Shown here one piece after another: positions 13,085 through 57,373 of a stretch of DNA of 57,373 nucleotides (position 1 is its first letter; every line of letters starts with the position of its first letter). The notes beneath the pieces are model-generated. The model did no database searches. It was not told the origin of the DNA and saw only the letters and a program-made list of their open reading frames with translations. The translations under genes were made by a program, and so were the position numbers. This stretch comes from Litchfieldia alkalitelluris (lineage in GTDB: Bacteria > Bacillota > Bacilli > Bacillales > Salisediminibacteriaceae), in assembly GCF_002153425.1 (NCBI RefSeq), contig NZ_KZ119600.1:4417384-4474756 (forward strand), read 5' to 3'.

Positions 13085-13275
13085 GGGATCGCTCGGTAGC
13101 TTTCTCTTTTTTACGAATACCATATTAAACATGTAGGGATCGCTATCGGCTCTTTCCTCATTTCTAGGGTAATGCGTGCGGACTGGATTTCATGCTTCAT
13201 TGGATTCCTGGCCGCATTTTCGCGTTTTGCGGACTAGATTTCATGTTCCACTGGATTTCTGGCCGCATTTCCTCG
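13085..13275. repeat. Decayed 51-bp tandem repeats, two families
   Basis: Two copies of a unit starting GGGATCGCT lie at 13085 and 13136, exactly 51 bp apart. They are followed by two copies of a second unit at 13177 and 13228, also 51 bp apart. Each copy of the second unit carries an imperfect inverted repeat with TGCGG at one end and CCGCA at the other. Similarity between copies is clear but imperfect. The period is one base short of the 52-bp arrays elsewhere in the window. Confidence 0.65.
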
Positions 13276-13582
13276 ATTACAACCATTACCTTCACTATTA
13301 CTAGTTATCTTTGCACTTCCCTTTCCTTATTAAAAGAATTACCAATTCTCTCTACATTAAAATAACCTTAAAAATATTTCATTCTTGTTAAATCTACATA
13401 ATCTTGTTATGTAACACATATTTTGTACAGAATTGGATAAAGTAGTGAGATGAAAAGGACAATATTTCTTTTTACATTTTGCTTAGTAAATGTATATACG
13501 CTAATCAGAAATGCTGTGCCATAATAGCATCAAAAACCATGTGAAGTATAGTTAATGTTAAGTGCACACTAAACATAGTAAA

Positions 13583-13617
13583 AACGTGCTATACACCAGG
13601 CGGGAGTACAGCACGTT
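13583..13617 (-). terminator. Terminator of the ywmB-murA transcript
   Basis: AACGTGCT (13583-13590) pairs with AGCACGTT (13610-13617), with further TAC/GTA pairing. On the minus strand a TTTTTA run follows. It lies 48 bp past the murA stop. Confidence 0.8.
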
Positions 13618-13664
13618 AATGGAATTATCTTGATTTAAATCAACTAAGTGTGAAGCTCAAAAAT

Positions 13665-15002
13665 TTACTTTACTGCGAAGTTGGAGTTTGGTTCCATCTT
13701 CAATGGTGCAGGTGCTTCTAAGTTTTCGAGCTCACTTTCGTTCGGTTCGTAAACTCGCTCAATGTCAGCGCCTATCTGCTTTAGTTTTCCAGCAAGGTCT
13801 ACATAACCACGGTCGATGTGCTTTAATTCCGTGACACGTGTTTGACCTTCTGCTACAAGGCCTGCTAAAACGAGGGCAGCGCCAGCACGTAAGTCCGTTG
13901 AGGCAACCTCTGCACCTTGTAGTTTGTTAGGACCAGTAACAATAGCTGAGCGTCCTTCAATCTTAATGTCACCATTCATGCGACGGAATTCTTCCACATG
14001 CATGAAGCGGTTCTCAAATACTGTTTCAGTAATTACGCCAGTTCCTTCAGAACAAAGAAGCAGCGTCATCATTTGAGCTTGCATATCTGTTGGAAAACCA
14101 GGGTGCGGCATTGTTTTAATATCGACTGCCTGAAGCTTTTCTGGTCCAATTACACGTAGACCATTGCTTTCTTCGATGATAATAACGCCCATTTCATTCA
14201 TTTTAGCGATGAGTGGACGAAGGTGTTCAGATAAGACGTTCTCAATGAGTACATTTCCACCTGAAATAGCAGCAGCCACCATAAACGTTCCTGCTTCAAT
14301 TCGATCAGGAATAATAGTATGGTCTGCACCTGTTAATTCATCTACACCTTGAATGCGAATGGTACCTGTTCCAGCACCGCGAACTTTAGCGCCCATGGCG
14401 TTTAAATAGTTCGCTAAGCAGACGATTTCAGGCTCTTCTGCAGCGTTCTCGATAATCGTTGTTCCCTTTGCCATTGTTGCTGCCATCATAATATTTTCTG
14501 TGGCTCCAACGCTTGGGAAGTCTAAATAAATTTTGTCACCAATAAGTTGATCTTCCACTTTTGCTTCGATAAATCCATTACCAATTTCAACTGTTGCTCC
14601 CATTGCTTCAAAACCTTTGAGGTGTTGATCAATTGGTCGTGAACCAATTGCACATCCTCCTGGTAATGCAATGCGTGCATGCCCAACACGAGCTAATAAC
14701 GGGCCCATTACTAAGAAAGAAGCTCTCATTTTTCGCACATACTCAAATGGTGCTTCCGTCCCTAATGTTCCTTCCGCATTAACTGTGATGTGTCCATCTT
14801 CGTAACTGACATCTGCATTTAGGTTCCTTAACACTTCATTAATCGTGTATACATCAGCAAGCGCTGGTACATCATAAATGTTGCTCTTGCCTTTGCTGGC
14901 CAAAATGGATGCAGCGATGACCGGCAAAACGGCGTTCTTCGCTCCTTCGACTCGGACAGTGCCGTTTAAGCTCCTGCCACCGCGGACGATAATTTTTTCC
15001 AA
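13665..15002 (-). CDS. murA: UDP-N-acetylglucosamine 1-carboxyvinyltransferase MurA
   Basis: First committed step of peptidoglycan synthesis: transfers enolpyruvate from PEP to UDP-GlcNAc in the cytoplasm. EPSP-synthase fold, 445 codons with a 25-residue C-terminal tail beyond the usual end. The substrate motif is K22-N23 in GAKNAVLP. The catalytic Cys117 lies in [13 protein letters not shown], so a fosfomycin-type active-site cysteine is present. [15 protein letters not shown] and [13 protein letters not shown] near the end are standard. Position with ywmB upstream and spoIID downstream matches murAA of B. subtilis. Confidence 0.96.
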
Positions 15003-15035
15003 CGTATTCCCCTCCGCGTCCAGATTTCTATATTA

Positions 15036-15839
15036 TTAATATTCAGTAGTTATAAGTGGTGTGCCAATTGTAACGGTTGTTTTTCCGCCCAATCCTTCAT
15101 TGTAATCTAATTGTCGTACTGCAGCCTGTAAGTTCATTTCCTGGCCGTTAGTGATTAGCTTATTGTTCCAATGAGGCGTGAGTGCTGATAAGGATACGAA
15201 ATTATCTTCCTGTACTTCTTCAACTACTTGAGCTGAAAAAGTATCCATCAACTTTTGCCCCATCTGTTGAACATTTAATGCATCATTTTCAGAAACTGTT
15301 CCTTCTATCCGTAAAAAAATATCTGCTGGATCATAATTGTTGAGCAAGGCATTCTTGCTAAACAGATGAAACGCGGTATCCTTCGTGGATATGGGAAGGA
15401 AAGATGCCTCATAAATGGTGTAAACTTCATATTGATCTTTGCTAGAAGTCATAGGTTGAATGAAAATTGATGTCTTCTTAGTATATGACGATTTTTGCTC
15501 AGAAAAAGTTCCGTTCCATTTTTTGCTGCTGTTTACTTTGTTTCTGATTGTGTTCATGTCATCATCTGTCAAGTTCCAGTTTTCCAGATATTTCATCATT
15601 TCATCATATGATTCAAAACCCGTTTGGTGACTTCGTGCATAAATGTGAGCACGGTTTGTCATTACACCAATATCTGAGAGTTTTTTATCCATTAATGTTA
15701 TTATATGCTGTGGTGATTGCTGCGATTTAACAGTTGAATGACTTAAACTTCCTTCTGCTTCCTTAAACCCCGACAACAATGTTGTAATCATAAATATAAC
15801 AGTACAAGCTACTGCTAGACTTTGCCAATTTCTCCCCAT
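15036..15839 (-). CDS. ywmB: YwmB family secreted protein
   Basis: Member of the YwmB family, found next to murA in Bacillaceae; biochemical role unknown. It has a hydrophobic N-terminal signal or anchor (SLAVACTVIFMITTLLSG) and then a soluble domain. The GLGGKTTVTIGTPLITTEY region at the end is characteristic. The ATG at 15839 (MGRNWQS) is preferred: GGGAGAGGA lies 5 nt before it, whereas the TTG nine codons upstream has none. It lies 33 bp upstream of murA and is probably cotranscribed. Confidence 0.85.
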   Translation of the reverse strand: MGRNWQSLAVACTVIFMITTLLSGFKEAEGSLSHSTVKSQQSPQHIITLMDKKLSDIGVMTNRAHIYARSHQTGFESYDEMMKYLENWNLTDDDMNTIRNKVNSSKKWNGTFSEQKSSYTKKTSIFIQPMTSSKDQYEVYTIYEASFLPISTKDTAFHLFSKNALLNNYDPADIFLRIEGTVSENDALNVQQMGQKLMDTFSAQVVEEVQEDNFVSLSALTPHWNNKLITNGQEMNLQAAVRQLDYNEGLGGKTTVTIGTPLITTEY

Positions 15840-22496: not shown

Positions 22497-22497
22497 A

Positions 22498-26653: not shown

Positions 26654-27012
26654 TCTAGCACCTTCTTTTTCCAAGAATATGCAAGTCCTAACGCTAAGAT
26701 CGCGATAAAGATCAATCCGCCATTAAGACCTACCCACCCCAGCTCACCTAGAGCCATGGCCCAAGGGTATAAGAAAACGGTTTCAACGTCAAAAATGACA
26801 AACTCGAGCGCAACAATGTAATACGCCGCATGAAACCTAACTTGAGCATCTCCCGTTGGTTCAATACCACTTTCATATGTAGAAAGCTTCTTGTCGTACG
26901 GGTTTTTTGGCCTAAGTAACCGACCAAATGTGAGAGCTCCAACTGGAAGTGCAACCCCTAACAAAATAAAGACGATAACGAAAATATAACTGTCAAAATA
27001 CCCCAGCTCCAT
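26644..27012 (-). CDS. nuoA: NADH-quinone oxidoreductase-like subunit A
   Basis: Three-helix membrane subunit of complex I, 122 codons. [21 protein letters not shown] is the loop signature (about 44-64) and [17 protein letters not shown] carries the conserved acidic helix. The start at 27012 (MELGYFDSY) has GGAGGGGAG upstream. It is the first gene of the 11-gene operon nuoABCDHIJKLMN. A perfect TATAAT on the minus strand at 27074-27079 could be its -10 box, but I see no convincing -35. Confidence 0.95.
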
Positions 27013-27514
27013 ATGTTCACTCCCCTCCATAATAGTTAAACTATGAAACTTGTATAACATAACTTCAGTTCAAATTATAACAAAGTGGTGACAATTTTGC
27101 TATATTATTCTAAATTCTCAGATTAGTATGTTACACACTATACAAATAGTGTTTAACTAGTTTGTAACCTGTGTTTATCGCTTAGAACGTTGTTGTGAAA
27201 GCGTTTTATTGGTTGGTCTGTTGGTTGGTTAGATTATAATAATTATTATTTGATAAAAAATAAATTAAAACTAGCTAAAAATGTGTTATTGTTAAAAAAG
27301 TTTTCTGTTTTGATCGTCTGGAAGAAAAAAACATTTGTGTCTGATGAGTGGAATTAAATGTGATACAAGTAGATTCCCTCGAATTATTCATTTTCTGTTT
27401 TATTGTGTATTGCTGAATCTTCGTTCGATTGACTACAACAGTTTTTAATGCCGGACAATAACAGAGTGACTTTTTAAACAAAGTTGTTTAGTATGTTGCG
27501 GTTGTGCGGGGGTT

Positions 27515-27574
27515 GTGCGGGGCCTGGTCCCCGAACTATTTGTCGGGGACCAGGCCCCGCACAAATTTGTGAAC
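27515..27574 (-). repeat. REP-like inverted pair, family B
   Basis: Two 20-bp arms, 27515-27534 and 27543-27562, are perfect reverse complements (GTGCGGGGCCTGGTCCCCGA and its complement). Each contains the CCTGGT/ACCAGG core. After the right arm, GTTC on the minus strand (27571-27574) stands 13 nt from the core, as at 7189-7227. The layout resembles a REPIN (two REPs head to head). Confidence 0.78.
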
Positions 27575-27843
27575 CTCCTTTCTGCATTGCAAAGCACTGA
27601 AATGCACTGCAATAGCGTGCTTCGGATAGCTATCCATAGCTATCTTTGCTATCCATAGCCAACTTTTGCTTTCCTTCACACACGCTTGCTTTGCTAGGAT
27701 TCGTTGCTACTTAAACGATTTTGATTAACTTGATTATCCCCTCACTATTAGTCCATTCATCGTGTCACGAAATTATTCTTGTTTTATATGATTTTATAAG
27801 AAAAGCGCAAACGACTATGATCACAAGCGTAGGGCAGTGGAGG

Positions 27844-27960
27844 AATGACAACAACTAGAGGACGAAAATCACTGCCTCTTCCTTTAATAGCTTAGCTCTG
27901 TTGGTTATATGTCGAGGCAACTTATAGCAGATTCATGAAGAACAGCTCGTTGTTGTCATT
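27844..27960. mobile_element. 117-bp element with 12-bp terminal inverted repeats (MITE-like or structured RNA)
   Basis: AATGACAACAAC (27844-27855) and GTTGTTGTCATT (27949-27960) are perfect inverted repeats. A second inverted pair, GGCAGTG (27833-27839) and CACTGCC (27870-27876), overlaps the left end. No reading frame is present. The size and ends fit a MITE, but a folded RNA cannot be excluded and no target-site duplication is obvious. Confidence 0.4.
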
Positions 27961-28040
27961 TCGAAGTGCCTTGTAGGAAGTAGGCGCTGAAGCTAGACAT
28001 GAATTCGAAGAGACGTAAAAATTCTTATCTTTAATCAAAA

Positions 28041-28066
28041 AGTCCCGATTACAATTAATCGGAACT
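28041..28066 (-). terminator. Terminator downstream of the GNAT gene
   Basis: On the minus strand AGTTCCGATT pairs with AATCGGGACT across a 6-nt loop, followed by TTTTT. It lies about 125 bp after the GNAT stop and probably ends the sigma/anti-sigma/GNAT transcript. Confidence 0.8.
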
Positions 28067-28189
28067 CTCCTTTATCATTAGTAACTATTAAACTAAAACT
28101 TTACTATTTTCAAACTATCACTATATTCTTCTCCCAGTCACTCAACCTCATATAATTACAACCGACTACCCAGCTATCTACTTTGCTTC

Positions 28190-28597
28190 CTAACCTTTCC
28201 CTGATTGATTTTGATAGTTTCGAATCATCATCCCAGTGGCTTTAATCATGCTTTGTTTTTCATAATAAGGTTGTAACTCCTCGTCACACAATAAGTCCAC
28301 CATATACAATCCATCTAATTTCTGAAGCATCTGTTTTACTAGTTCATTACCAATCCCCTGACCTTGGAATTCTGGCACCACTTCCAACAATGGAATATAG
28401 GCCGACAACACCCCGTCACTAATGGCAGTAATAAATCCAACCACTTGCCCTGACTCTTCCTCCACTGCCAAAACAATATGACTGCTATTTTCCAACAGCT
28501 TCATATGTGTCTCTGGAGAAGGTGGGTTTGGCCACCCCACAAAAAATCCAGTAAGCTTATCTTTAGTTACACTATCTAATTTGTCTGTGTATCTCAT
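28190..28597 (-). CDS. GNAT family N-acetyltransferase
   Basis: 135 codons. Acetyl-CoA-dependent acetyltransferase fold: motif A is LLEVVPEFQGQGIGNELVKQM (about residues 69-89) with the Q-x-x-G-x-G acetyl-CoA loop. IVLAVEEESGQVVGFITA forms the preceding beta strands. The C-terminal YYEKQSM is typical. The substrate cannot be told. It follows the second sigma/anti-sigma pair on the same strand, with a REP hairpin between them, so cotranscription is uncertain. Confidence 0.88.
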   Translation of the reverse strand: MRYTDKLDSVTKDKLTGFFVGWPNPPSPETHMKLLENSSHIVLAVEEESGQVVGFITAISDGVLSAYIPLLEVVPEFQGQGIGNELVKQMLQKLDGLYMVDLLCDEELQPYYEKQSMIKATGMMIRNYQNQSGKG

Positions 28598-28621
28598 GTC
28601 ATTCTCCCCCTTTCAGTGTTT

Positions 28622-28651
28622 GTTCGATATAACAGTCGGTTACCTGGTAAC
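28622..28651 (+). repeat. REP, family A, overlapping the end of anti-sigma gene 2
   Basis: GTTC (28622-28625), 13 nt, then the perfect palindrome GTTACCTGGTAAC (28639-28651). On the minus strand the palindrome supplies the last codons (V-T-R) and the TAA stop of the anti-sigma gene. Confidence 0.82.
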
Positions 28652-29725
28652 GTTAATCACATCCACAATTTCCTCCATTAATTCATCGTCCAATTCTCCA
28701 GATATCATAATTTCTTCTGTTTGAATTGACATATTTACCTTAGGAGCGGTGATCATTTCCCCTTTAAAATAAAACGGTACTGTTTCCCCGATGTGGTTAC
28801 TCGTAAAGGCATAAACAAAACCATTTTGCACAAAACGAAACGTGACTACCGCCCCAGTTTCCTGCTCCCTTATCTGTGCAGATCCCGGTTCAATGTCCGA
28901 CAAATCTGCGATCAATCTGCCATCTTCACTGCGAATCTCCAGCACCTCCGCTCCATCAACCGTTTCCGCCTCGTCTTTGTACTCAAACGCAACCTCATCA
29001 ATTGCAGAATCATCATTGTGCCAACTAGTTTCCTTATCCCTTTCCTCCAAAACGATTCCTTTCATCTTCTCGAAAAAATCAACCTTCCCCTCACTCCGAT
29101 AAATATCCGCGGGTCCATCCATTGTGGCGTGCTCAAAAATATGCACGGTGCCTTCCTCATTAACAGTAACTGCTGTTGAAATATTCATCGCTTCATCGTG
29201 AACCATATTCACTAAATAACTGTCTGGCCTAGCAAAGTCTGGCTCATATTCTTCCGTTTTCATCTGCTCAACATCCATAGTCCGGATCTCACTCACTAAT
29301 TCCTTCAGCCTTTCATCATCAGGTGCTAGCTGAGAACTGCCACTAGAAACATTCGGCTCATCATACCAGTTAAAAAAAGCAAACTCGAAATCTTCCAGAT
29401 CATTTATATCACCAAACAGAAGCGTATCTCCAGTTTGTTCGCCACCTATCCCAGATCCCGAACCACTCTGTCCGAAATCGGTCAATACTGGCACCAACAA
29501 CAGTAGCATTATAACCGCTGCTCCCGCTACCGCCGCGTAATATTTCCACGGACTCTTCCCCTTCATTAAACTCACATCCTTTTCATTGTTCTCCAACTTT
29601 CGTGCCTCTAGTTTATCCGAAAACTGACGGTCCACATCTGCCTGCTCTCCGTCTGTTAACTCTAGCTTTATTTCAAGACCTGCAAAATCCTGGTCCAACA
29701 CACGCTTCTCCTCAAATCGTTTCAT
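28640..29725 (-). CDS. Probable transmembrane anti-sigma factor for ECF sigma copy 2
   Basis: 361 codons: a cytoplasmic N-terminus (1-57), PWKYYAAVAG, a membrane segment (about 62-82), a Gly/Ser-rich linker and a roughly 270-residue acidic extracellular domain of no recognised family. There is no zinc-binding Cys/His motif. The ATG overlaps the sigma gene's last 14 bases, with GGAGGGATACC nearby. The N-terminus MKRFEEK and the PWKYYA motif match the first pair's partner; the outer domains diverge more. The stop codon is inside a REP palindrome, so the original C-terminus may have been different. Confidence 0.7.
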   Translation of the reverse strand: MKRFEEKRVLDQDFAGLEIKLELTDGEQADVDRQFSDKLEARKLENNEKDVSLMKGKSPWKYYAAVAGAAVIMLLLLVPVLTDFGQSGSGSGIGGEQTGDTLLFGDINDLEDFEFAFFNWYDEPNVSSGSSQLAPDDERLKELVSEIRTMDVEQMKTEEYEPDFARPDSYLVNMVHDEAMNISTAVTVNEEGTVHIFEHATMDGPADIYRSEGKVDFFEKMKGIVLEERDKETSWHNDDSAIDEVAFEYKDEAETVDGAEVLEIRSEDGRLIADLSDIEPGSAQIREQETGAVVTFRFVQNGFVYAFTSNHIGETVPFYFKGEMITAPKVNMSIQTEEIMISGELDDELMEEIVDVINVTR

Positions 29726-30233
29726 GCTGGTATCCCTCCTTTTCCAGCTGCAACTTTAGTGCCTTCATTCCTCTAAACAATGTACTTTTCACTTTACCCT
29801 CCGACCAGTCAAGAACTTCAGACACTTCCTTTATGGAAAAACCCTTTAGTTTTCTCAGCACAATAACATCACGATATGTTCTCTTCAATTTGCCTAGTGC
29901 ATGATACAATTCCCTTTCAGTCTCATTTAGCGTAACAATTTTTTCTGGCGATCCAACATTGTCCACTGCCTTTGGTAATCGATCGAACAAATAGGCCACT
30001 GGTTTTTCCTTCCGAATCGTATCAATCGTGATATTACGAGCAATACGAAATAACCACCCTTTCACAGTACCCCCATCAAAAGACGAAAAATTATCATAGG
30101 CACGAAGGAACGTTTCCTGCATCAAATCCTTTGCTTTTTCATGATCCCCACACAAAAAGAGTACATATTGATAAATATCTCTATTATATTCGTTGTACCA
30201 TTTCTTCACTTTCTGTTTGTTTTCATTCTCCAA
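29712..30233 (-). CDS. ECF RNA polymerase sigma factor (copy 2)
   Basis: 173 codons, closely similar to 11172-11702. Region 2: DIYQYVLFLCGDHEKAKDLMQETFLRAYDNF (about 16-46), then WLFRIARNITIDTIRKEKP. Region 4: TYRDVIVLRKLKGFSIKEVSEVLDWSEGKVKSTLFRGMKALKLQL. The start is TTG at 30233 behind GGAGAAGGGACC, the same start codon as its paralogue. The 3' end overlaps the anti-sigma start by 14 nt. Two REP copies lie upstream, between it and the divergent gene at 30516. Confidence 0.9.
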   Translation of the reverse strand: MENENKQKVKKWYNEYNRDIYQYVLFLCGDHEKAKDLMQETFLRAYDNFSSFDGGTVKGWLFRIARNITIDTIRKEKPVAYLFDRLPKAVDNVGSPEKIVTLNETERELYHALGKLKRTYRDVIVLRKLKGFSIKEVSEVLDWSEGKVKSTLFRGMKALKLQLEKEGYQHETI

Positions 30234-30391
30234 AGTCCCCGGTCCCTTCTCCTCTAGAGTTATCTTCTCTCATCAACAAATCATTTTACTAAAATGATCT
30301 CTATCAAGCTCTTACACTATCAACGGATTTTTATCTATAAAGTTTCGAAAATGATTCATTTTCTTGGTGCATTATTTTTATAAACTGCTGC

Positions 30392-30421
30392 GTTCTCTAT
30401 ATAAGTCGATTACCAGCTAAC
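30392..30421 (+). repeat. REP, family A, first of a direct pair upstream of sigma copy 2
   Basis: GTTC (30392-30395), 13 nt with TATATA and ending GTCG, then imperfect hairpin ATTACCAGCTAAC (30409-30421). Confidence 0.75.
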
Positions 30422-30427
30422 ATAATA

Positions 30428-30457
30428 GCTCTTTATATAAGTCGGTTACCAGCTAAC
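30428..30457 (+). repeat. REP, family A, second of a direct pair
   Basis: GCTC (30428-30431, one base from GTTC), 13 nt, then GTTACCAGCTAAC (30445-30457). Copy-to-copy distance is exactly 36 bp, so this is a tandem duplication of the element. Confidence 0.75.
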
Positions 30458-30515
30458 ATAATATTGCTCCTCGCCTACTATACATGTGGAGACAACTTAT
30501 ATTAGAGGTGAGTAA

Positions 30516-30827
30516 ATGATAAATACAACTAGTGGTCGGAATGACCGATATACTAGCACTAACAATACGTACAATTCTAAAGCAACTGCTACTCTCGTAC
30601 TTGGCGTTTTGTCGCTCCTGTTATCGATCTTCGCATTTCTTGGATTCCCACTTGCTGTCATCGGCCTTGTCGTTGGGGTGGTCAGCCTTTTAGAAATAAA
30701 AAAAGAACCGCAGCCCGGAAAAGGTTTTGCTCTATTAGGTATTCTACTTTGCTGCCTTGCATTCCTTTACCCTATTATTCTGCTTATCCTAACCTATCCA
30801 CTTTTTACAACATTAAGCATTGCATGA
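30516..30827 (+). CDS. DUF4190-type small membrane protein
   Basis: 103 codons. A polar Asn/Thr-rich N-terminus (1-22) is followed by two hydrophobic hairpins (about 24-62 and 73-98), separated by a basic stretch with KKEPQPGKGFALLGILL. The ATATLVLGVLSLL opening and the GKGFA turn fit the DUF4190 family of unknown function. ATG at 30516 follows AGAGGTGAG. It is divergent from the sigma gene and shares a 282-bp upstream region containing two REPs. A regulatory link is possible but unproven. Confidence 0.7.
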   Translation: MINTTSGRNDRYTSTNNTYNSKATATLVLGVLSLLLSIFAFLGFPLAVIGLVVGVVSLLEIKKEPQPGKGFALLGILLCCLAFLYPIILLILTYPLFTTLSIA

Positions 30828-30947
30828 GACTGCCACTGTCTTTTTCGTTAAAATCCTGAATGGTAGCTAGAACTAGAGCAAGCGTCCATAGGGAAGGGAA
30901 TCGCCCGATGTGAAAATCAACTTCAAACGAAAACAGTCCCAACAAAA

Positions 30948-30986
30948 AACACCTCCATAACCTAAGTTTTAGGCCATAGAGGTGTT
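30948..30986. terminator. Bidirectional terminator between DUF4190 gene and sspH
   Basis: AACACCTC (30948-30955) pairs with GAGGTGTT (30979-30986), with inner CCTAA/TTAGG pairing. On the minus strand TTTTTTG follows and on the plus strand TTTTC. It lies just past the stop of the sspH-type gene and between convergent genes. Confidence 0.88.
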
Positions 30987-30994
30987 TTCACTTC

Positions 30995-31177
30995 TTATTG
31001 CTGCTCTTGTAAACTGTCTATAGACACGCTCTGCTTACTATTCGGCTCGTCTACTGGATGAATCGTCGCCATCCCGTTTGACTGATCTACATGTTCAATG
31101 TAAACCTGCTGCCCATTATACATGACATTCGCCATCGTTTGCGAGTTTGAAATTTCTTGTGCTCGTTGTGCATCCAT
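30995..31177 (-). CDS. sspH: Small acid-soluble spore protein, SspH family
   Basis: 60 codons. It matches the H-type minor SASP family found in the spore core: MDAQRAQEIS, then ANVMYNGQQVYIEHVD, then a region with AT-IHP-DEP, ending in a Leu/Gln-rich tail. ATG at 31177 has a near-perfect GGAGGTG. An in-frame start 17 codons further upstream has no site. Expression in the forespore is expected from the family; I did not identify its promoter. Confidence 0.9.
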   Translation of the reverse strand: MDAQRAQEISNSQTMANVMYNGQQVYIEHVDQSNGMATIHPVDEPNSKQSVSIDSLQEQQ

Positions 31178-31452
31178 TATGTAGCACCTCCTCTTGAAAA
31201 GTAAGCCGCATATGCTGAAAGGGAGCATGATAGCGACTTACAATATCCTTCATGCAATGAAAGTTAAATCATTGCGCCAGTTATACTATTTGTAAAATAA
31301 TCCATTACTATACATTTTTAATCAATTTTTTACAAAAGAGAACTACTATAACGGAAGAAGAGATAGGCGCTACAGAGCTTCTATTCCTGTGGAAAATGAA
31401 TAGCCTGCAGCTAACACCAGCACAATATTTGAATTTTGCCTACTTGGATATT

Positions 31453-32100
31453 TTAATTTAATGCCGAATCTACCAAAGCTTTTTTATACATACGCCGAAG
31501 TAACAAGTAAATGAGTAGATATACCACTAAATAACCAAACAAATACAGCGTGGAAAAAGTAGATATACCACTAAATCGAATGATATGAAGAATGTATGAC
31601 CCAAGGGGGAGTACAAGCAGAATTAACATAAAAACCTTTGTATAACGTAGAACCTTATATCTTAATGGATCAAACTTGAACCAAAAAAAACCGACAATGA
31701 CAGCGCCCGCAATAAGGAATTTTACTAGATTTGAAATCATTAGGGTTGCTATGTTTTCCGCAACCTCACCATAATAAATCGGTAAACTCATCAGGGAAAG
31801 AGCTCCAAGTAAAAACCCCAGTGCAAGCTGAAAACCAACGTTTCCCCCTTTATAGTTCAAGTCAAATTCTCTGTTATATTGGTCAACGATCTGCTTCCCA
31901 AGCTCCTGCGATGGTAGAAAGGACGCCACAGCCTGCCGCTCCGCCTCTTCCTTACTACAACTTTCCTGCTCCATCAATTCTTCTGCCGTCGAAACGAGAT
32001 CATCTTTTACTTCATTTATATGTCCTATCCTTTGTTTTTCGGGCAAAAACCTGAGTTTTACCTCAAGCTGAGCAAGATAATCCTTCAGCGGTTCACTCAT
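31453..32100 (-). CDS. HAAS-domain membrane protein paired with PadR regulator
   Basis: 215 codons. The N-terminal 80 residues are an alpha-helical HAAS-like domain (PLKDYLAQLEVKLRFLP, EEAERQAVASFLPSQELGKQI), then four predicted helices (about 90-205). Such proteins are commonly the second gene of PadR operons and resemble DUF1700/DUF1129 membrane proteins. ATG at 32100 has AGGAAGGTG upstream and overlaps the PadR stop by 8 nt, indicating translational coupling. Specific function unknown. Confidence 0.8.
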   Translation of the reverse strand: MSEPLKDYLAQLEVKLRFLPEKQRIGHINEVKDDLVSTAEELMEQESCSKEEAERQAVASFLPSQELGKQIVDQYNREFDLNYKGGNVGFQLALGFLLGALSLMSLPIYYGEVAENIATLMISNLVKFLIAGAVIVGFFWFKFDPLRYKVLRYTKVFMLILLVLPLGSYILHIIRFSGISTFSTLYLFGYLVVYLLIYLLLRRMYKKALVDSALN

Positions 32101-32437
32101 CCGTATCACCTTCCTTTAGGGACACAAGAAAACCGTTCAGTCTTTGAAAATAATCGTAACGCTCCTTCAAAACCTGGTCGCCCTCCTTCGTTGAATGATA
32201 ATACTTCCTACTCCTTCCTTCATGTTCTTCCTGGTAAAACTTGATCCAGCCGTTGTTCGTTAGCCGTCTTAAAATGGGGTAAATGGATCCGCTCGCTAGA
32301 TTAACAACGCCACCCTGTTGTAGCTCCTTCGTAATTTCATACCCATACATTGGCTTCTTACTAACTAAAAGTAAAATTGCCAATTCAAACATTCCCTTTG
32401 ACAACTGATTATTCCAATCTAAATTTTTACTATTCAT
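32093..32437 (-). CDS. PadR family transcriptional regulator
   Basis: 114 codons. Winged-helix PadR repressor: FELAILLLVSKKPMYGYEI, the recognition region LASGSIYPILRRLTNNGWI and the wing EGRSRKYYHSTKEG, ending in a short dimerisation helix. The ATG at 32437 is chosen because the predicted transcription start lies 1-2 nt before it; the ATG 3 codons upstream would be outside the mRNA. No ribosome-binding site is present, so the message may be leaderless. Operator-like sequences overlap its promoter, suggesting autorepression. Confidence 0.9.
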   Translation of the reverse strand: MNSKNLDWNNQLSKGMFELAILLLVSKKPMYGYEITKELQQGGVVNLASGSIYPILRRLTNNGWIKFYQEEHEGRSRKYYHSTKEGDQVLKERYDYFQRLNGFLVSLKEGDTDE

Positions 32438-32444
32438 ACTACAC

Positions 32445-32473
32445 AATATATCTTACACAACTATATGTGTCAA
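32445..32473 (-). promoter_or_regulatory. Sigma-A promoter of the padR-HAAS operon
   Basis: TTGACA (32468-32473) and TATATT (32445-32450) on the minus strand, exactly 17 bp apart. Transcription would begin about 7 nt after the -10, at or next to the ATG at 32437. Confidence 0.75.
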
Positions 32474-32488
32474 TCAACTATATAGTTG
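32455..32488. promoter_or_regulatory. Probable PadR operator
   Basis: The perfect palindrome CAACTATATAGTTG (32475-32488) lies just upstream of the -35. ACACAACTATATGTGT (32455-32470) covers the spacer between -35 and -10. Both share AACTATAT. Location and symmetry fit binding by the PadR protein encoded downstream; this is inferred. Confidence 0.6.
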
Positions 32489-32626
32489 TTATACACCTAT
32501 TCTATATAAGAAAAAGAGGCTGGTTGTCCTCATCAAGGTGGAATGAACACTGCACTGTATTAACTCCCAGAAATTTGGTTGCGTGTGTTATTATTAGAAT
32601 ATTACATAATTTTGGAGGCTACATTC

Positions 32627-33004
32627 ATGAATGATCCTATGTTAGTAACACTGATTATTATTTTAGTCGTCTATTTATTTACAGATCTTTTACTGCGTAA
32701 AAAGAAAGGTCATAAGCTCAGCAAATCGTTTATCAAGAATGTTTTTCATAATCGAAACAAACTCTTCATTGCAATTGATATCTTATTAGTTATTGCATTT
32801 TTAGGTGTTGCAGCTTATGCCTCTACCAGATTTCCTCCAACATATTCTCCCCTTTTACTATTTACTTTTCTAGCATTTATCAATTTTTTGCGTGGCTTAG
32901 AGGAGTGGTTATACAAGCGAGAGGAAAAGGAGTATCAGCATAGCTGGTTAGCAGTGGGGTTTCTTTTAGTCTTTCTCACAGTTGGTTTTGTGTACATTCC
33001 TTAG
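32627..33004 (+). CDS. DUF4181-like membrane protein
   Basis: 125 codons, four predicted membrane helices (about 5-20, 45-62, 70-85, 104-123). A basic segment follows helix 1 (RKKKGHKLSKSF) and LRGLEEWLYKREEKEY precedes the last helix. The pattern resembles DUF4181 proteins of Bacillaceae, but the match is weak. The ATG at 32627 has TTGGAGG at the right distance. Monocistronic, divergent from padR. Confidence 0.6.
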   Translation: MNDPMLVTLIIILVVYLFTDLLLRKKKGHKLSKSFIKNVFHNRNKLFIAIDILLVIAFLGVAAYASTRFPPTYSPLLLFTFLAFINFLRGLEEWLYKREEKEYQHSWLAVGFLLVFLTVGFVYIP

Positions 33005-33045
33005 ACATTTTTAGTGCTCCTCCTTTGAGATAAACAAAAACGGAA

Positions 33046-33084
33046 AGAACCTGCTGTGGGACAAAGTCACCACGAACAGGTTCT
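33046..33084 (-). terminator. Terminator of the SGNH hydrolase gene
   Basis: AGAACCTG (33046-33053) pairs with CAGGTTCT (33077-33084), with inner GTGG/CCAC. On the minus strand TTCCGTTTTTG follows. It lies about 50 bp past the gene at 33135. Confidence 0.7.
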
Positions 33085-33134
33085 AGCTCCGTTCAATAAT
33101 ATTAGCTATGTTTTCCCAAAAGGGAAGTAAATGT

Positions 33135-33794
33135 TTAAGCTTTGTTCCAGTCGAAACCCACTGTTTTCAAGAATGCGCGTGTAATTGTCATATGGCCAGC
33201 AGCGCTTGGGTGTACGCGATCCCACGCCAATGTTGCTGGATAGAGCTCTTTCAGCTGCTCGTTGAATGCGGCTTGGGTATCGACAATCTGGCAATTGTAT
33301 TTTTCTGCGATTTCCTTCACAGCTCGTCCGTACTCGTCCATCGTCTTCCGCATAGCATCTGCCTCATTCGTTTCAAGATAGAATGGTGTCATAAGGACAA
33401 GGCCACCGTTAAGTTTCGGTTTCGTCACTGTCACGAGCTCCTCTAATGTCTCCTTGTATTCTTTCAGTTGGACGTGCTTCTCTGGTTGAGTCGGCAGGTC
33501 GTACTGGCGCCAAACATCGTTAATTCCAATCATGATCACTAGCCAATCTGGACTTGGTTTTATGACGTCCGTCTCCCATCTTGCCTTTAGATTGCGCACG
33601 GTATGGCCGTTAATTCCTTTGTTCACCACACGAATGCCAAGCTCTGGATAGACTGATTGGAGGAGTGCATCCACTTGGGAAACATATCCTGTTCCAAGTG
33701 CTCCAAAATTCCCTTCTCCTTCTGGCTTTGCGCGATCACAATCTGTAATGGAGTCTCCGATAAAAAGTAGTTTTTGTCCTTTTTCAAGCTTCAT
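33135..33794 (-). CDS. SGNH/GDSL hydrolase
   Basis: 219 codons, cytoplasmic (no signal peptide). All four SGNH blocks are present: FIGDSITD (Ser nucleophile), NKGINGHT (Gly), MIGINDVWR (Asn) and WDRVHPSAAGHM (Asp and His). These lipase/esterase-fold enzymes often deacetylate sugars or cleave esters, but the substrate is not readable. ATG at 33794 follows ACCAACG-type sequence without a strong Shine-Dalgarno. The gene lies 32 bp after the polysaccharide deacetylase on the same strand, so the two are likely cotranscribed and may act on related acetylated carbohydrates. Confidence 0.9.
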   Translation of the reverse strand: MKLEKGQKLLFIGDSITDCDRAKPEGEGNFGALGTGYVSQVDALLQSVYPELGIRVVNKGINGHTVRNLKARWETDVIKPSPDWLVIMIGINDVWRQYDLPTQPEKHVQLKEYKETLEELVTVTKPKLNGGLVLMTPFYLETNEADAMRKTMDEYGRAVKEIAEKYNCQIVDTQAAFNEQLKELYPATLAWDRVHPSAAGHMTITRAFLKTVGFDWNKA

Positions 33795-33826
33795 CGTTGG
33801 TTCCGCCTTTCCATTATGTAAAGTGT

Positions 33827-35316: not shown

Positions 35317-35339
35317 TATGCTCTACCTCCTTTTTCCAA

Positions 35340-35807: not shown

Positions 35808-36196
35808 TTTTTTCCCTCCTAAATGGATTATCAGTTATTGGACTATTCTTTGTTTAACGCGAACTTTGTGTGTTGCACGACACTTTGTAAATCTCGTGGA
35901 GTTTTTATTGGATATGGATCTTTTTATTTACCACGAAATTTTGTCTATTTTGCGAACTTATTACTGCTTTGTCGAGTCTTCGGCTACGAGATTGTCAATT
36001 TATTGACTCTAGCATCGGCAAAATTTAATAGATTTATACAATAATGGATTGATAGATAGGGAAATTAGAGTGTTATTGTTCAGCTCTCCGATTCTCATGT
36101 CGAAAGTATTCAAATTTCCAGGGAAATATTTGTTTTTTTTTGACAACCGTTGTATATTTAAGATGCTCCTCAAAAAAAATAGAATGGAAGTGTGCT
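35808..36196. other. Gap between DUF2243 and NERD genes
   Basis: About 390 bp, AT-rich, shared divergent upstream region. Two stretches near 35876 and 35932 (56 bp apart) are weakly similar, and CACGA/TCGTG forms a short inverted repeat. I do not see a clear element. Confidence 0.45.
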
Positions 36197-37156
36197 ATGG
36201 CTACTATTCTCAAACCTCGAAGCCCCTCTCTAGAACTTCTCATCATGAATTCCTTGAGTTTAAGAATGAAATTCACAAAGGAACTTGAACAACGATTGTA
36301 TGCAATTAATAGTGGATATGAAGGTGAGGTGAAATTTGATACGTTTTACGAAAATTGTCCTGATAATTGGGTAATTTTGAATGACATTTGGCTCAAGATT
36401 GATAACTTTACATTCCAGATAGACAGTTTGTTAATCACTACTGGAACTAACTATTTGTTTGATGTAAAAAACTTTTTGAATGAATATGAATATAGGAATG
36501 GTCGTTTTTATAGGAAGGACCAGGAAACAAGAAGTAATCCTCTAAAACAATTAGAACGTTGCGACACCTCATATCGCTACCTCTTGAAGCAACTAGGTCT
36601 AAATTTCCCAGTCGTATCTAACTTAGCATTTGTTAATGAAAAATTTACATTGTTTGGTGCAACCCGTGATTTGCCTATCATTTTGCCAACTCAAATGGAA
36701 CAATTTTTTCAACAGCTTAAAACAACCGAAGCAAAGACGAGTAAACGCTCCGAACAGCCTTCTCAACATCAAATGCACTTAGCAAATCAAATCTTATCTT
36801 TACATGTTAACCAATCACCATACAAAGACTTGCCAGACTATTCATTTGAGATTCTTGAAAAGGGGCTAGTTTGTGGGAAGTGTGGTACTTTTTTTGCACC
36901 GCCTGGGAAGTTGCAAAGGACATTGCTTTGTCATAAATGCGGGTGTGAAGAATCAGTTGAAAATGCTATTTTAAGGTGTATTGAGGAGTACAGACTGCTC
37001 TTTCCAAATGACAGAATAACCACTAAAAGGATTCAGGAATGGTGTAGGGTTATTACGTGTGAAAGAAGGATTAGAAGATCTCTAAACAAATATTTCCAAA
37101 GAATCGGACACAGTACTTCTTCTTATTTTGTCGAACGGAGTGCCCAAAGTATTTAG
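36197..37156 (+). CDS. NERD domain protein with C-terminal zinc ribbon
   Basis: 319 codons. A nuclease-related NERD domain lies at about 35-150 (GYEGEVKFDTF, then FQIDSLLITTGTNYLFDVKNF with the D...VK pattern of the restriction-like fold). A linker is followed by a C4 zinc ribbon (LVCGKCGTFF ... LCHKCGCEE, about 225-255) and a helical C-terminus. NERD proteins are thought to process DNA, but the function is not established. ATG at 36197 with GGAAG ahead is preferred; the frame stays open 19 codons upstream. The gene is alone on the plus strand and is followed by the 52-bp array. Confidence 0.85.
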   Translation: MATILKPRSPSLELLIMNSLSLRMKFTKELEQRLYAINSGYEGEVKFDTFYENCPDNWVILNDIWLKIDNFTFQIDSLLITTGTNYLFDVKNFLNEYEYRNGRFYRKDQETRSNPLKQLERCDTSYRYLLKQLGLNFPVVSNLAFVNEKFTLFGATRDLPIILPTQMEQFFQQLKTTEAKTSKRSEQPSQHQMHLANQILSLHVNQSPYKDLPDYSFEILEKGLVCGKCGTFFAPPGKLQRTLLCHKCGCEESVENAILRCIEEYRLLFPNDRITTKRIQEWCRVITCERRIRRSLNKYFQRIGHSTSSYFVERSAQSI

Positions 37157-37344: not shown

Positions 37345-39190
37345 ACATATTTTTTATCCTTTTGCGGACATTTTTTTCTTGTTTCTTGATGGTTTTGTCC
37401 GCTGACCCTTCGTCTGCGGACATTTCATACCTTCTTCTTGTTTATTTTGTCCGCTGCGTCATCAGCTGCGGACATTTCACACCTGCTTCTTGTTTGTTTT
37501 GTCCGCTGCGTCTTCGTCTGCGGACATTTCACACCTTCTTCTTGTTTGTTTTGTCCGCTGCGTCTTCGTCTGCGGACATTTCACACCTTCTTCTTGTTTG
37601 TTTTGTCCGCTGCGTCTTCGTCTGCGGACATTTCACACCTTCTTCTTGTTTGTTTTGTCCGCTGCGTCTTCGTCTGCGGACATTTCACACCTTCTTCTTG
37701 TTTGTTTTGTCCGCTGCGTCTTCGTCTGCGGACATTTCACACCTTCTTCTTGTTTGTTTTGTCCGCTGCGTCTTCGTCTGCGGACATTTCACACCTTCTT
37801 CTTGTTTGTTTTGTCCGCTGCGTCTTCGTCTGCGGACATTTCACACCTTCTTCTTGTTTGTTTTGTCCGCTGCGTCTTCGTCTGCGGACATTTCACACCT
37901 TCTTCTTGTTTGTTTTGTCCGCTGCGTCTTCGTCTGCGGACATTTCACACCTTCTTCTTGTTTGTTTTGTCCGCTGCGTCTTCGTCTGCGGACATTTCAC
38001 ACCTTCTTCTTGTTTGTTTTGTCCGCTGCGTCTTCGTCTGCGGACATTTCACACCTTCTTCTTGTTTGTTTTGTCCGCTGCGTCTTCGTCTGCGGACATT
38101 TCACACCTTCTTCTTGTTTGTTTTGTCCGCTGCGTCTTCGTCTGCGGACATTTCACACCTTCTTCTTGTTTGTTTTGTCCGCTGCGTCTTCGTCTGCGGA
38201 CATTTCACACCTTCTTCTTGTTTGTTTTGTCCGCTGCGTCTTCGTCTGCGGACATTTCACACCTTCTTCTTGTTTGTTTTGTCCGCTGCGTCTTCGTCTG
38301 CGGACATTTCACACCTTCTTCTTGTTTGTTTTGTCCGCTGCGTCTTCGTCTGCGGACATTTCACACCTTCTTCTTGTTTGTTTTGTCCGCTGCGTCTTCG
38401 TCTGCGGACATTTCACACCTTCTTCTTGTTTGTTTTGTCCGCTGCGTCTTCGTCTGCGGACATTTCACACCTTCTTCTTGTTTGTTTTGTCCGCTGCGTC
38501 TTCGTCTGCGGACATTTCACACCTTCTTCTTGTTTGTTTTGTCCGCTGCGTCTTCGTCTGCGGACATTTCACACCTTCTTCTTGTTTGTTTTGTCCGCTG
38601 CGTCTTCGTCTGCGGACATTTCACACCTTCTTCTTGTTTGTTTTGTCCGCTGCGTCTTCGTCTGCGGACATTTCACACCTTCTTCTTGTTTGTTTTGTCC
38701 GCTGCGTCTTCGTCTGCGGACATTTCACACCTTCTTCTTGTTTGTTTTGTCCGCTGCGTCTTCGTCTGCGGACATTTCACACCTTCTTCTTGTTTGTTTT
38801 GTCCGCTGCGCCTTCGTCTGCGGACATTTCATCCTTTCTTCTTGTTTGTTTTGTCCGCTGACCCTTCAGCTGCGGACATTTCATCCTTTCTTCTTGTTTG
38901 TTTTGTCCGCTGCGCCTTCTTCTGCGGACATTTCACACCTGCTTCTTGTTTGTTTTGTCCGCTGCGTCTTCGTCTGCGGACATTTCATACCTTCTTCCTG
39001 TGTGTTTTGTCCGCTGACCCTTCAGCTGCGGACATTTCTTACCTTCTTCTTGGGGATTTTGTCCACTGCGTCTTCGTCTGCGAACATTTCACACCTTATT
39101 ATTGTTTGTTTTGTCCGCCGACCCTTCTTCTGCGGACATTTCAACCTTTCTTCACGTCAGTTTTGTCCGCAGCACTTTATTTTGCTTCTA
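37345..39190. repeat. 52-bp tandem array 1 (TGTCCGC hairpin family), about 34 units
   Basis: Unit starts fall at 37397 + 52n with no slip up to 39165, plus half-units at both ends. The 25 units from 37501 to 38800 are identical; the outer ones diverge. Each unit has TGTCCGC and GCGGACA arms separated by 13 nt (hairpin span 27 nt), then a T/C-rich linker of about 25 nt. No unit carries a stop codon on the plus strand in any frame. Because 52 is 3n+1, three overlapping frames of 521-588 codons arise; none has a ribosome-binding site and I treat them as artefacts. It lies between the convergent NERD and atpC genes. Confidence 0.95.
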
Positions 39191-39327: not shown

Positions 39328-39729
39328 TTAACTGCCAGCTACTTCAAGACGGTTTATAGCTCGTTTTAAAGCAAGCTCGGCACGTTTGAAATCAATATGT
39401 TCTTTTTTCGCTCGCTCAAGACGGCGTTCAGCACGTTCCTTCGCTGCCCGTGCCCTCGCTACGTCAATGTCTGACGGTAACTCAGCTGATTCAGCTAAAA
39501 TACTTACTTCGTCTGGGCGAACTTCCATAAAACCGCCACTGACAGCGACGAGCTGAATATTTGAATCATTTTTAAGGCGAACGATACCGATAGTTAGTGG
39601 TGCAACTAGCGGTAAGTGCCCCGCCATGATACCTAGGGAGCCTTCCGTTGTTTTCACCGTAACCATTTCGATCTGTCCTTCAAATACGCTGCCATCAGGA
39701 GTGACGACATTGGCCTGCATCGTCTTCAC
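39328..39729 (-). CDS. atpC: ATP synthase F1 epsilon subunit
   Basis: 133 codons. Regulatory and coupling subunit of F1. N-terminal beta sandwich ([36 protein letters not shown]) and C-terminal two-helix domain ([21 protein letters not shown]). The start is GTG at 39729 after GGAGGGTGAACC; ATG three codons in is an alternative. It is the last gene of the operon, separated from atpD by an unusually long 281-bp spacer with repeats. Confidence 0.95.
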
Positions 39730-50596: not shown

Positions 50597-50796
50597 AATT
50601 AAACCTGATTTGTTTTACCGAAGACTTGGTGTTACCTCCCTTTCGGGGAATTAAAACTGATTTATTTTACCGAAGGCTTGGCGCTGAATTCCTTTCGGGG
50701 AATTAAACTTGATTTATTTTACCGAAGGCTTGGTGCTACCTCCCTTTCGGGGAATTAAAACTGATTTATTTTACCGAAGGCTTGGTGCCTTGCTTC
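50597..50796. repeat. 52-bp tandem array 2a (CCGAAGG hairpin family)
   Basis: Four units begin at 50597, 50649, 50701 and 50753, each 52 bp. Each begins AATTAAA and contains CCGAAGG (CCGAAGA in the first), a 15-nt loop and CTTTCGG (one G/T pair). The fourth runs into array 2b at a shared CTTCGGG sequence, with no spacer. Confidence 0.88.
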
Positions 50797-52010
50797 GGGC
50801 ACTATCAACGACTCTTAGTGCCCCAAACACGATTCCACCCCTCGCTTCGGGCACTATCCACTCTTCTTAGTGCCCCAAACACGATTCCAACCCTCGCTTC
50901 GGGCACTATCCACTCTTCTTAGTGCCCCAAACACGATTCCAACCCTCGCTCCGGGCACTATCAACGACTCTTAGTGCCCCAAACACGAGTGCAACCCTTG
51001 CTTCGAGCACTATCCACTCTTCTTAGTGCCCCAAACACGATTCCAACCCTCGCTCCGGGCACTATCTACTCTTCTTAGTGCCCCAAACACAAATCCAAGC
51101 CTTGCTTCAGGCACTATCAACGACTCTTAGTGCCCCAAACACGATTCCAACCCTCGCTTCGGGCACTATCAACGACTCTTAGTGCCCCAAACACGATTCC
51201 AACTCGTGCTTCGGGCACTATCCACGACTCTTAGTGCCCCAAACACAAATCCAACTCTCGCTTCGGGCACTATCAACGACTCTTAGTGCCCCAAACACGA
51301 TTCCAACCCTCGCTTCGGGCACTATCCACGACTCTTAGTGCCCCAAACACAAATCCAACTCTCGCTTCGGGCACTATCAACGACTCTTAGTGCCCCAAAC
51401 ACGATTCCAACCCTCGCTCCGGGCACTATCAACGACTCTTAGTGCCCCAAACACGATTCCAACCCTCGCTTCGGGCACTATCCACGACTCTTAGTGCCCC
51501 AAACACGTGTGCAGCCCTTGCTTCGGGCACTATCTACTCTTCTTAGTGCCCCAAACACGAGTCCAACTCTTGCTTCGGGCACTATCTACTCTTCTTAGTG
51601 CCCCAAACACGAGTCCAACTCTTGCTTCGGGCACTATCCACGACTCTTAGTGCCCTGAACACAAATCCAACTCTTGCTTCGGGCACTATCAACGACTCTT
51701 AGTGCCCCAAACACGATTCCACCCCTCGCTTCGGGCACTATCCACGACTCTTAGTGCCCCAAACACAAATCCAAGCCTTGCTTCGGGCACTATCAACGAC
51801 TCTTAGTGCCCCAAACACGATTCCACCCCTCGCTTCGGGCACTATCCACGACTCTTAGTGCCCCAAACACAAATCCAAGCCTTGCTTCGGGCACTATCAA
51901 CGACTCTTAGTGCCCCAAACACGATTCCACCCCTCGCTTCGGGCACTATCCACGACTCTTAGTGCCCCAAACACAATAGCAACTCGTGCTTCGGGCACTA
52001 TCCATATCCA
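50797..52010. repeat. 52-bp tandem array 2b (GGGCACTA hairpin family), 24 units
   Basis: Unit starts fall at 50797 + 52n up to 51993 with no slip. Each has GGGCACTA, an 11-nt loop and TAGTGCCC (27-nt span), then a variable 25-nt linker CCAAACAC-(GATTCC or AAATCC)-CTTGCTTC type. Loops alternate between TCAACGACTCT and TCCACTCTTCT or TCCACGACTCT. Unlike array 1, units vary. It lies downstream of upp and upstream of the subtilase gene. Confidence 0.95.
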
Positions 52011-55909: not shown

Positions 55910-56151
55910 TTCAAACTGCCGCCTTTCTCATTTCCTTTAATATATGGCTAGTTAATCATCTACCAGCTGAAAGGGAGTACCTGTAACAAAAATTTAGCCT
56001 CAAGGTTTAACATAGCCAATTATAAAAATCGAAGTCCCTGTTCGTATTTTAACAAGGTAATGCCATTTCAAACAGTAGCTTTTGACAAAAAACTCAAATT
56101 ATTTTTTAAAATGTCAAATGAAAAGGTTTACATTGTCCATAACCTAACCTT

Positions 56152-56802
56152 TTACTGTTCTTCAAACTTTTTTAAAAGTTTTTTCACTGATTCCTCGAGC
56201 TCTTTAAACGTTTGATCATACACTTCCACACTAGCCATGTATGGATCTGCTATGTCGAAGGATGGCAGTTCGGCCATTAACTTTGCGATTGCTTCCTGCT
56301 CCGGTTGAAGCTCTTTAAGCAGTGCTTGCTCAAGCTCCTGTTGTTTAGAAATATCTTTCGTTTTATTATATCTTTCCACTTGATCTTGATTGTTTGCTAA
56401 AAAGCTAGCTCGTTTTAATTCCAACTGAGCCATATGGTGCTTCAGTTTATCGATCTTTTCTATCGTTTCAGGGTCGTCCAGAATATATTCTTTCAATGTA
56501 TATATTTTCTCATGGTTTTCAGGATATAGTTCTATCACTGAGCGTCTATGATTTTCTGTCATCGTTAACACTACATCAGCCCAATCAATGAGATCTCTAC
56601 TCAGAACTGATGACTTATGATTATCTATCATATTCCTATTTGATAAAACGGTTTGTGCTCCTTCAGACATGGGCATACCTTCTATCGCATGAATCCCAGC
56701 AGATTTCACTTCGAATTTACCACTTTGTTCTTTCAAAAAGATAGCTTCTGCCATGGGGCTTCTACATGTATTTCCTGTACATACAAATAATATATTTTTC
56801 AT
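56152..56802 (-). CDS. ywlE: Low-molecular-weight protein phosphatase, YwlE-like, with insertion
   Basis: 216 codons against about 150 for B. subtilis YwlE, the protein-arginine phosphatase. The P-loop is C8-T-G-N-T12-C-R14-SPMAE; threonine at 12 is the residue linked to phosphoarginine selectivity in YwlE. The general acid is in DIADPYMAS (Asp186). Between the LKEYILDD strand (about 110) and DIADP (about 184) is a roughly 70-residue charged, probably coiled-coil segment (KLKHHMAQLELKRASF, QQELEQALLKELQPEQE) absent from typical YwlE. Start ATG at 56802. Confidence 0.88.
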   Translation of the reverse strand: MKNILFVCTGNTCRSPMAEAIFLKEQSGKFEVKSAGIHAIEGMPMSEGAQTVLSNRNMIDNHKSSVLSRDLIDWADVVLTMTENHRRSVIELYPENHEKIYTLKEYILDDPETIEKIDKLKHHMAQLELKRASFLANNQDQVERYNKTKDISKQQELEQALLKELQPEQEAIAKLMAELPSFDIADPYMASVEVYDQTFKELEESVKKLLKKFEEQ

Positions 56803-56949
56803 TAAGCCACATCCCTTCTACCTTCCAATTTCCCTTGTTCCTATTATTTTATGCTTCAATTATTTTCCAAAAGTTGCTTTCGTTATGTCGGAGTTCATTA
56901 TTATATTTTATCACATAAGCACCACTCAAGTGTTGCTTGGGGATTTTAT

Positions 56950-57020
56950 GGGAGGGGGGGAGGGTGTGGGATAGGGGGTGGTTTGAGTTTGGGGGCGGGG
57001 GTTGGATGGTGGGTTGGGGT
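56950..57020 (+). other. G-quadruplex-forming sequence candidate
   Basis: Runs GGG (56950), GGGGGGG (56954), GGG (56962), GGG (56968) and GGGGG (56974) are separated by 1-3 nt, and more runs follow to 57019. This satisfies the usual G3+N1-7 pattern with several alternatives, in an otherwise AT-rich genome. Confidence 0.7.
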
Positions 57021-57045
57021 CCGAGATGCTTTATTTAATCATTCT

Positions 57046-57058
57046 CATACCTGGTAAC
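57046..57058. repeat. Degenerate family A REP-like hairpin
   Basis: CATACCTGGTAAC keeps the ACCTGGTAAC half, but its left arm is changed. No guide GTTC is present at 13 nt. Confidence 0.4.
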
Positions 57059-57066
57059 ATTGCTAT

Positions 57067-57373
57067 ATTGACAGATTTAGGTTCGATTACATCAAATCTG
57101 CCTTTATTACCTTGTTTTATCGACAGATTTGATGCTGATATATTCAAATCTGTCGGTATTACCTTGTTTTATCGGCAGTTTTGCTTCTAAAAGATTCAAA
57201 TCTGCCGGTATTACCTTCTCTTATCGACAGTTTTGCTGCTAATAAATTCAAATCTGTCGGTATTACCTTGTCTTATCGACAGTTTTGATGCTAATAAATT
57301 CAAATCTGTCGGTATTACCTTCTCTTATCGACAATTTTGCTGCTAATAAATTCAAATCTGTCGGTATTACCTT
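57067..57373. repeat. 52-bp tandem array 3 (CGACAG hairpin family), six units to the window end
   Basis: Units begin at 57067, 57119, 57171, 57223, 57275 and 57327, exactly 52 bp apart; the last is cut by the window edge. Each has CGACAG(A/T)TTTG and TTCAAATCTGTCG arms (up to 12 bp) around an 11-nt loop, then GTATTACCTTGT-type linker. The unit at 57171 has CGGCAG paired with CTGCCG, a compensating double change. Confidence 0.93.

Follow-up and report, generated by a model that had tools for sequence, protein, structure and literature searches.

A TGTC-N19-GACA-N25 skeleton in 52-bp tandem arrays of Litchfieldia alkalitelluris and its distribution across the order

Tandem repeats of 52 nucleotides (nt) that keep a constant length while their sequence varies have been described by Subirana and Messeguer (2021; PMC8161180) in roughly 30% of the Bacillus species that they surveyed; these authors distinguished them from clustered regularly interspaced short palindromic repeats (CRISPR) and listed B. 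cellulosilyticus, now placed in Evansella, among the carriers. Nucleoid proteins or small RNAs were proposed for these repeats, and why some satellites hold their length while the sequence changes was posed as an open question (PMC8161180). Apart from the work of these authors and PMC8625621, no treatment of the repeats was present among the literature matches listed. Here we analyse four arrays of 52-bp period, called with Tandem Repeats Finder (TRF), in a 57,373-nt stretch of Litchfieldia alkalitelluris (the window; positions 4417384-4474756 of the 4.88-Mb genome).

The window arrays are members of the published class, and the system is therefore not undescribed, as an initial annotation of the stretch had proposed. 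Like the Bacillus repeats, they are non-coding units of 51–53 bp in several copies, they occur as several unlike families of one length in a single genome, their sequence is species-specific (of 40 genomes, only that of L. alkalitelluris matches array A DNA), and the host is a Firmicute. Short signals together with their reverse lie within one repeat, a likeness that is weak in array B. They resemble CRISPR in combining a palindromic part with a spacer at regular distance, but the spacers here are repeated tandem copies rather than unique sequences and the arrays stand at many loci. What is new is a shared TGTC-N19-GACA-N25 skeleton and its spread across the order; the TGTC/GACA spacing, the layout of 27 plus 25 nt, the strand polarity and the site after atpC are all absent from the main text of PMC8161180.

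The four arrays and the period census

The arrays of the window are as follows.

37383..39170, minus strand: array A, 52 bp x 34.4 copies, TGTC-N19-GACA class, dyad TGTCCGC..GCGGACA
50597..50788, minus strand: array B, 52 bp x 3.7 copies, GGTAAAATAAA..TTTAATTCCCC class, weak dyad
50788..52004, minus strand: array C, 52 bp x 23.4 copies, GGGC-N19-GCCC class, dyad GGGCACTA..TAGTGCCC
57092..57373, minus strand: array D, 52 bp x 5.4 copies (the visible part, since the window ends within the array), TGTC-N19-GACA class, dyad TGTCG..CGACA

All four arrays of the initial annotation were recovered, with TRF intervals that match the original ones within a few tens of bases, and alignment of arrays A–D to their consensus sequences gave zero indels, bearing out the statement that unit starts do not slip. 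The inverted repeat that had been ascribed to every unit is clear in arrays A, C and D but weak in array B, where 7 of 10 pairs form in a 27-nt window; in another member of the array B family (L037) the best unconstrained hairpin is merely 13 nt. Relatives of array B lie at 718, 833 and 946 kb of the same genome. A period common to differing sequences was likewise found, although not all four sequences are unrelated: arrays A and D have the same skeleton.

The period was then counted in a sample of the genome composed of the window and 40 stretches of 20 kb (17.6% of the genome), with arrays of at least three copies and a period of at least 10 admitted. Five stretches (L031, L032, L036, L038, L047) had been picked because earlier matches lay there, and the other 35 are evenly spaced. 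Among 44 arrays, 28 have a period of 52, seven of 51 and one of 102; the evenly spaced stretches alone gave 14, six and one, respectively, among 25 arrays. The genome-wide peak that the initial annotation had named as its own check is thus present (36 of 44 arrays with a period of 51, 52 or 102) and survives in the even stretches (21 of 25). When arrays with periods of 50–54 bp were taken from all fetched DNA, 72 of 85 were exactly 52 bp. With the origin and terminus positions assigned by GC skew, the 19 origin-nearest even stretches hold 18 arrays of period 51, 52 or 102 and the 16 terminus-nearest hold three. In the same sample the arms of array A give 328 matches (both strands) inside arrays and 0 outside; loops and linkers vary from array to array. 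The sample also holds two-unit and solo hairpins.

Substitutions greatly outnumber indels in the arrays of the L. alkalitelluris genome (2343 vs 13 across 27,858 bp). Scarcity of indels is not specific to 52 bp, however: in relatives, five arrays with periods of 42–103 bp carry 175 substitutions and 1 indel, and five of 52–53 bp carry 326 and 0. Other periods being equally indel-free, the rarity of indels is weakened as proof of selection on length, and the slip-free register can no longer be regarded as a special trait of these arrays.

The TGTC-N19-GACA-N25 skeleton

The units of arrays A and D, like those of another family (E), consist of TGTC-N19-GACA followed by 25 nt. Many arrays that had been thought unrelated follow this same fixed plan: an inverted repeat of 27 bases and a spacer of 25. 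A search for two consecutive TGTC-N19-GACA-N25 units gave matches in 52 of 299 genomes of the order, representing 27 of 117 genera (L. alkalitelluris included), and in 0 of the 118 other genomes of the phylum sample. The pattern gives 442 matches in the L. alkalitelluris genome, while a reversed-pattern control gave 1 match in a single genome and 0 in every other of the 299.

The spacing stands out when both gaps are left free. Counting TGTC-g1-GACA-g2-TGTC triples in the 35 even stretches of the L. alkalitelluris genome, the cell (19,25) holds 48 of 93 and the next cell 2; adding the window and the chosen stretches changes the figures to 228 of 307 and 8. In a second genus the same cell holds 51 of 94 triples in 19 even stretches (next cell 1), and in a third 6 of 47 in 18 even stretches (next 1), rising to 32 of 86 when two chosen stretches are included. 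GGGC/GCCC ends at this same half-site spacing, as in array C (GGGC-N19-GCCC), were found in 7 of the 299 genomes, from six genera.

A first description of the geometry, from a centre chosen on a 27-nt window, was circular, and a later count still contained 14 families fetched by odd-centred patterns; the final count of parity and length drops those 14. Once pattern-fetched loci are excluded, nine genomes or species contribute 28 independent families, of which 24 have an even period and hence a defined centre parity. The best hairpin is odd-centred in 22 of these 24 (shuffles: 444 odd, 396 even), and inverted repeats exceed shuffles (mean score 7.6 vs 4.5). The outer hairpin length varies in the pattern-independent families, so that a dyad of exactly 27 nt characterises the TGTC and GGGC classes, and what holds more widely is the odd centre. 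Positions 6 and 22 pair in only 53%, and after the 27-nt window, itself chosen by pairing, many families have AAA or GAA on the purine strand.

The arrays also have a strand polarity in this genome. In 31 of 36 arrays the leading strand is the purine-rich one (for array A, the minus strand), and mean purine content is 0.599 in arrays vs 0.539 for leading tandem intergenic DNA. Polarity agrees throughout the 211 TGTC-class matches that can be oriented; a D-type array at 839,547, outside the 211, has the opposite one. We take GAGAAGGG, GAAGAAG and AGCGG to be segregation and recombination motifs. Within arrays AGCGG favours the leading strand by 200 to 5, a skew that we ascribe, without a count, to the TGTCCGC class.

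Candidate functions and origins

We favour, with a probability of roughly 0.4, the reading that the arrays are binding platforms of duplex DNA, phased at about five turns and read by a putative Bacillales protein. On this view they are satellites of the chromosome that work in duplex form. Units of the largest class consist of an odd-centred 27-bp dyad, with TGTC/GACA half-sites whose centres are 23 bp apart, and a 25-bp spacer; the period of 51–53 bp, close to five helical turns, would place all dyads on one face. A conserved DNA-binding protein may read this geometry and bind cooperatively along the array, probably serving between genes as a platform that organises the nucleoid. Skeleton, period, odd centre, distribution and gene context are observed here, whereas a reading protein, cooperativity and a role in the nucleoid are inferred. 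Half-site spacing and parity that are fixed, together with a narrow period, argue for duplex DNA read by a protein of set geometry, and disfavour an RNA hairpin because the latter requires neither fixed spacing nor parity. The earlier suggestion that the palindromes share one helix face is compatible with 52 bp being about five turns; a shared ligand or copying machinery, also suggested, has become likelier given one skeleton in 27 genera.

The shared skeleton makes the question of length concrete, namely which factor needs half-sites 23 bp apart in each 52 bp. The layout is a handle for finding a binder or copier, as a pull-down probe, and TGTC-N19-GACA-N25 written twice is a simple pattern with which to find largest-class arrays in any genome. 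A broader proposal, which we regard as rather unlikely, is that many 'unrelated' 52-bp Bacillales satellites form one superfamily on a single skeleton that a conserved protein reads and polymerises on, an analogue of centromere-type satellites in which sequence would turn over while geometry is retained. The variation of dyad length outside the TGTC and GGGC classes makes it slightly less likely.

A number of observations weigh against a protein-read platform. No binding protein was identified, Y1 transposases being the only candidates searched for, and the arm sequences, at least eight in one genome, are not obviously readable by one sequence-specific protein. Arrays B and C adjoin but do not keep one register, with centres at 50762 and 50810 (a distance of 48 bp). 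Spacing varies among kin: the leading cells of Evansella relatives are (19,24) with 12 triples, (13,31) with 12 and (19,25) with 7, and an E. cellulosilytica-like relative has the spacing (13,31). The best hairpin of the 28 families spans 29 nt in 6, 35 in 5 and 27 in 3, the remainder ranging over 13–44. Unlike arrays of 82–103 bp period occupy the same site after atpC, which qualifies the proposed convergence on 52 bp. Predicted curvature, calculated with wedge parameters, is not above shuffles in 55 arrays (mean z -0.01), and intrinsic curvature is rejected. Polarity is weak in two other genera (9 to 5 and 7 to 2 with chosen stretches included; 8 to 5 and 4 to 1 without those chosen by hits), so that it does not hold as a general rule; in one genome (G136) arrays also lie where the skew sign flips. 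Finally, some evidence points to transcripts: the 52-nt repeats were reported as transcribed in B. coagulans (PMC8161180), PMC8625621 reports RNA reads from such repeats in that species, 15 of 27 arrays, array A included, have no predicted terminator before them, and arrays of the L. alkalitelluris genome have 84 GT and 51 AC on the purine strand.

That the arrays are a selfish satellite is a realistic possibility, somewhat less likely than the platform. The skeleton would be recognised by an amplification process (slippage, unequal recombination at hairpins, or a site-specific recombinase) with no gain for the host; units would be copied precisely, and arrays would end up in tolerant intergenic sites such as that after atpC. 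Patchiness (52 of 299 genomes) and turnover (no array of at least three copies at the rex or tkt 3′ sides in fetched relatives) fit such a satellite nearly as well as a protein-read platform. The small number of indels whatever the period, the differing arrays at the atpC site, the leading-strand polarity in this genome and the existence of two-unit and solo hairpins also speak for it. Slippage alone, however, does not account for one spacing over 27 genera with changing stems and spacers. Insertion with target duplication would leave direct repeats on either side, and these are not in excess (longest flanking match 6.8 on average in 27 arrays vs 6.8 in 495 controls). Array stems do not flank the five Y1 transposase (Y1_Tnp) genes found, bar single short matches in two loci (L103, L104), and an origin from repetitive extragenic palindromic (REP) elements and their REP-associated tyrosine transposases (RAYT) is rejected; the arrays are like REP elements in their hairpins, intergenic position and several families per genome, and differ in being tandem and of a single period. 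A phage origin is rejected as well: the skeleton pattern occurs in 19 viral stretches with one match place each, resembling chance.

An RNA function, an option of Subirana and Messeguer in which array transcripts would be hairpin-bearing RNAs (sponges, small RNAs or 3′ ends), appears quite unlikely to us. Besides the B. coagulans reads and the arrays without a preceding terminator, it is favoured by the purine-rich strand, which usually reads onward from the upstream gene. Among the 27 arrays with a co-oriented upstream gene, however, a predicted terminator separates gene and array in 12 (two share one terminator), and one stands within 250 bp past the array end in just 2, so terminator placement leans against discrete transcripts. 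Array C, for instance, begins 208 bp past upp on the far side of a predicted terminator. Arrays between divergent genes are not significantly rarer (2 of 24 vs 86 of 414, p 0.19). The G-U test of RNA stems is conflicting: the GT lean of this genome is opposite to that of a 13-genome set, where the purine strand has no G-U excess (GT 44, AC 70; strand assignment is uncertain in some loci, among them L135 and L137). An array at 4517002, between two lagging-strand genes, keeps the replication polarity, as does one at 4345487 whose left neighbour is 3.5 kb away across masked bases. An RNA would also leave the fixed period and odd centre without a reason. Least likely of all is a single-stranded or supercoiled structure (hairpins on the lagging-strand template or cruciforms, serving as supercoil sinks or fork-pausing sites), which would suit the excess of inverted repeats over shuffles and the polarity and origin-rich placement in this genome, but not the stem mismatch retained in the array A consensus (TGTCCGCAG/CAGCGGACA), the low pairing at 6/22 or the weak polarity in other genera.

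The site after atpC and neighbouring features

Two further features belong with the arrays.

39328..39729, minus strand: atpC, its 3′ side a recurrent array site in different species
about 13177..13267, unstranded: two-unit element with TGCGGAC..GGCCGCA, a member of the 51-bp family whose copies are spaced by 51 bp

Array A starts 158 bp past atpC. At the same site in relatives the period is 52 in E. tamaricis, 91 in G007, 89 in Evansella sp. AB-P1, 82/41 in G003 and 82 in E. clarkii, and TRF shows no array there in E. caseinilytica or E. vedderi. Across the named records, the site has TRF rows in 8 of 18 loci; in three of the 8 the copy number is only about two. The atpC gap was definable in 14 of these loci, four being unresolved, and 5 of the 14 contain arrays, compared with 3 of 96 other gaps (p 0.0007). 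In 28 further skeleton-carrying genomes, arrays stand at the site in 11, mostly of 20–21 nt and multiples, and six of the 11 genomes come from one genus (g68). These 20–21-nt repeats and multiples past atpC in other genera (L206-L233) show that both published repeat classes use one chromosomal site. The Bacillus repeats of 20–21 nt (PMC8161180) are, like the 52-nt ones, non-coding and species-specific; they have a shorter unit, of about two helical turns.

Conservation of arrays at orthologous positions failed at rex and tkt, whose 3′ sides (1.5 kb flank) carry no array of at least three copies in the fetched relatives. The exception is a two-copy 52-bp repeat with a TTTGCAGG..CCTGCAAA palindrome about 310 bp past the 65%-identical tkt of Evansella sp. 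AB-P1 (G004; L112, 3787-3888), which may represent an array early or late in its history.

Several minor features adjoin arrays. About 10 kb of DNA, in which a NERD-domain gene and a polysaccharide deacetylase are found, lies between atpC and the nuo region (window about 27000-37000), where relatives have about 1–3 kb. A strongly G-rich tract with many runs of at least three G directly precedes array D (56955-57030). Near-identical terminator hairpins flank a 51-bp array after rpe (L044, about 965-1425), as if it had been born within a duplication. IS3-type (rve) transposase genes adjoin arrays at L016 11575-12420 and L036 7121-7978, the former between two arrays of the same family.

Elsewhere in the window, the region from 13085 in which the initial annotation placed the arrays also includes the two-unit element. 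Almost three copies of a 32-bp repeat (5385-5472) extend into the 3′ end of a minus-strand mreB-like gene. A RAYT-type Y1 (HUH) transposase gene lies on the plus strand at 8660-9301. Palindromes of GTTACCTGGTAAC stand near 8523 and 9386, and hairpins of GGGACCAGGTCCC at about 7189-7265; these are perhaps the gene's own REP-like sites.

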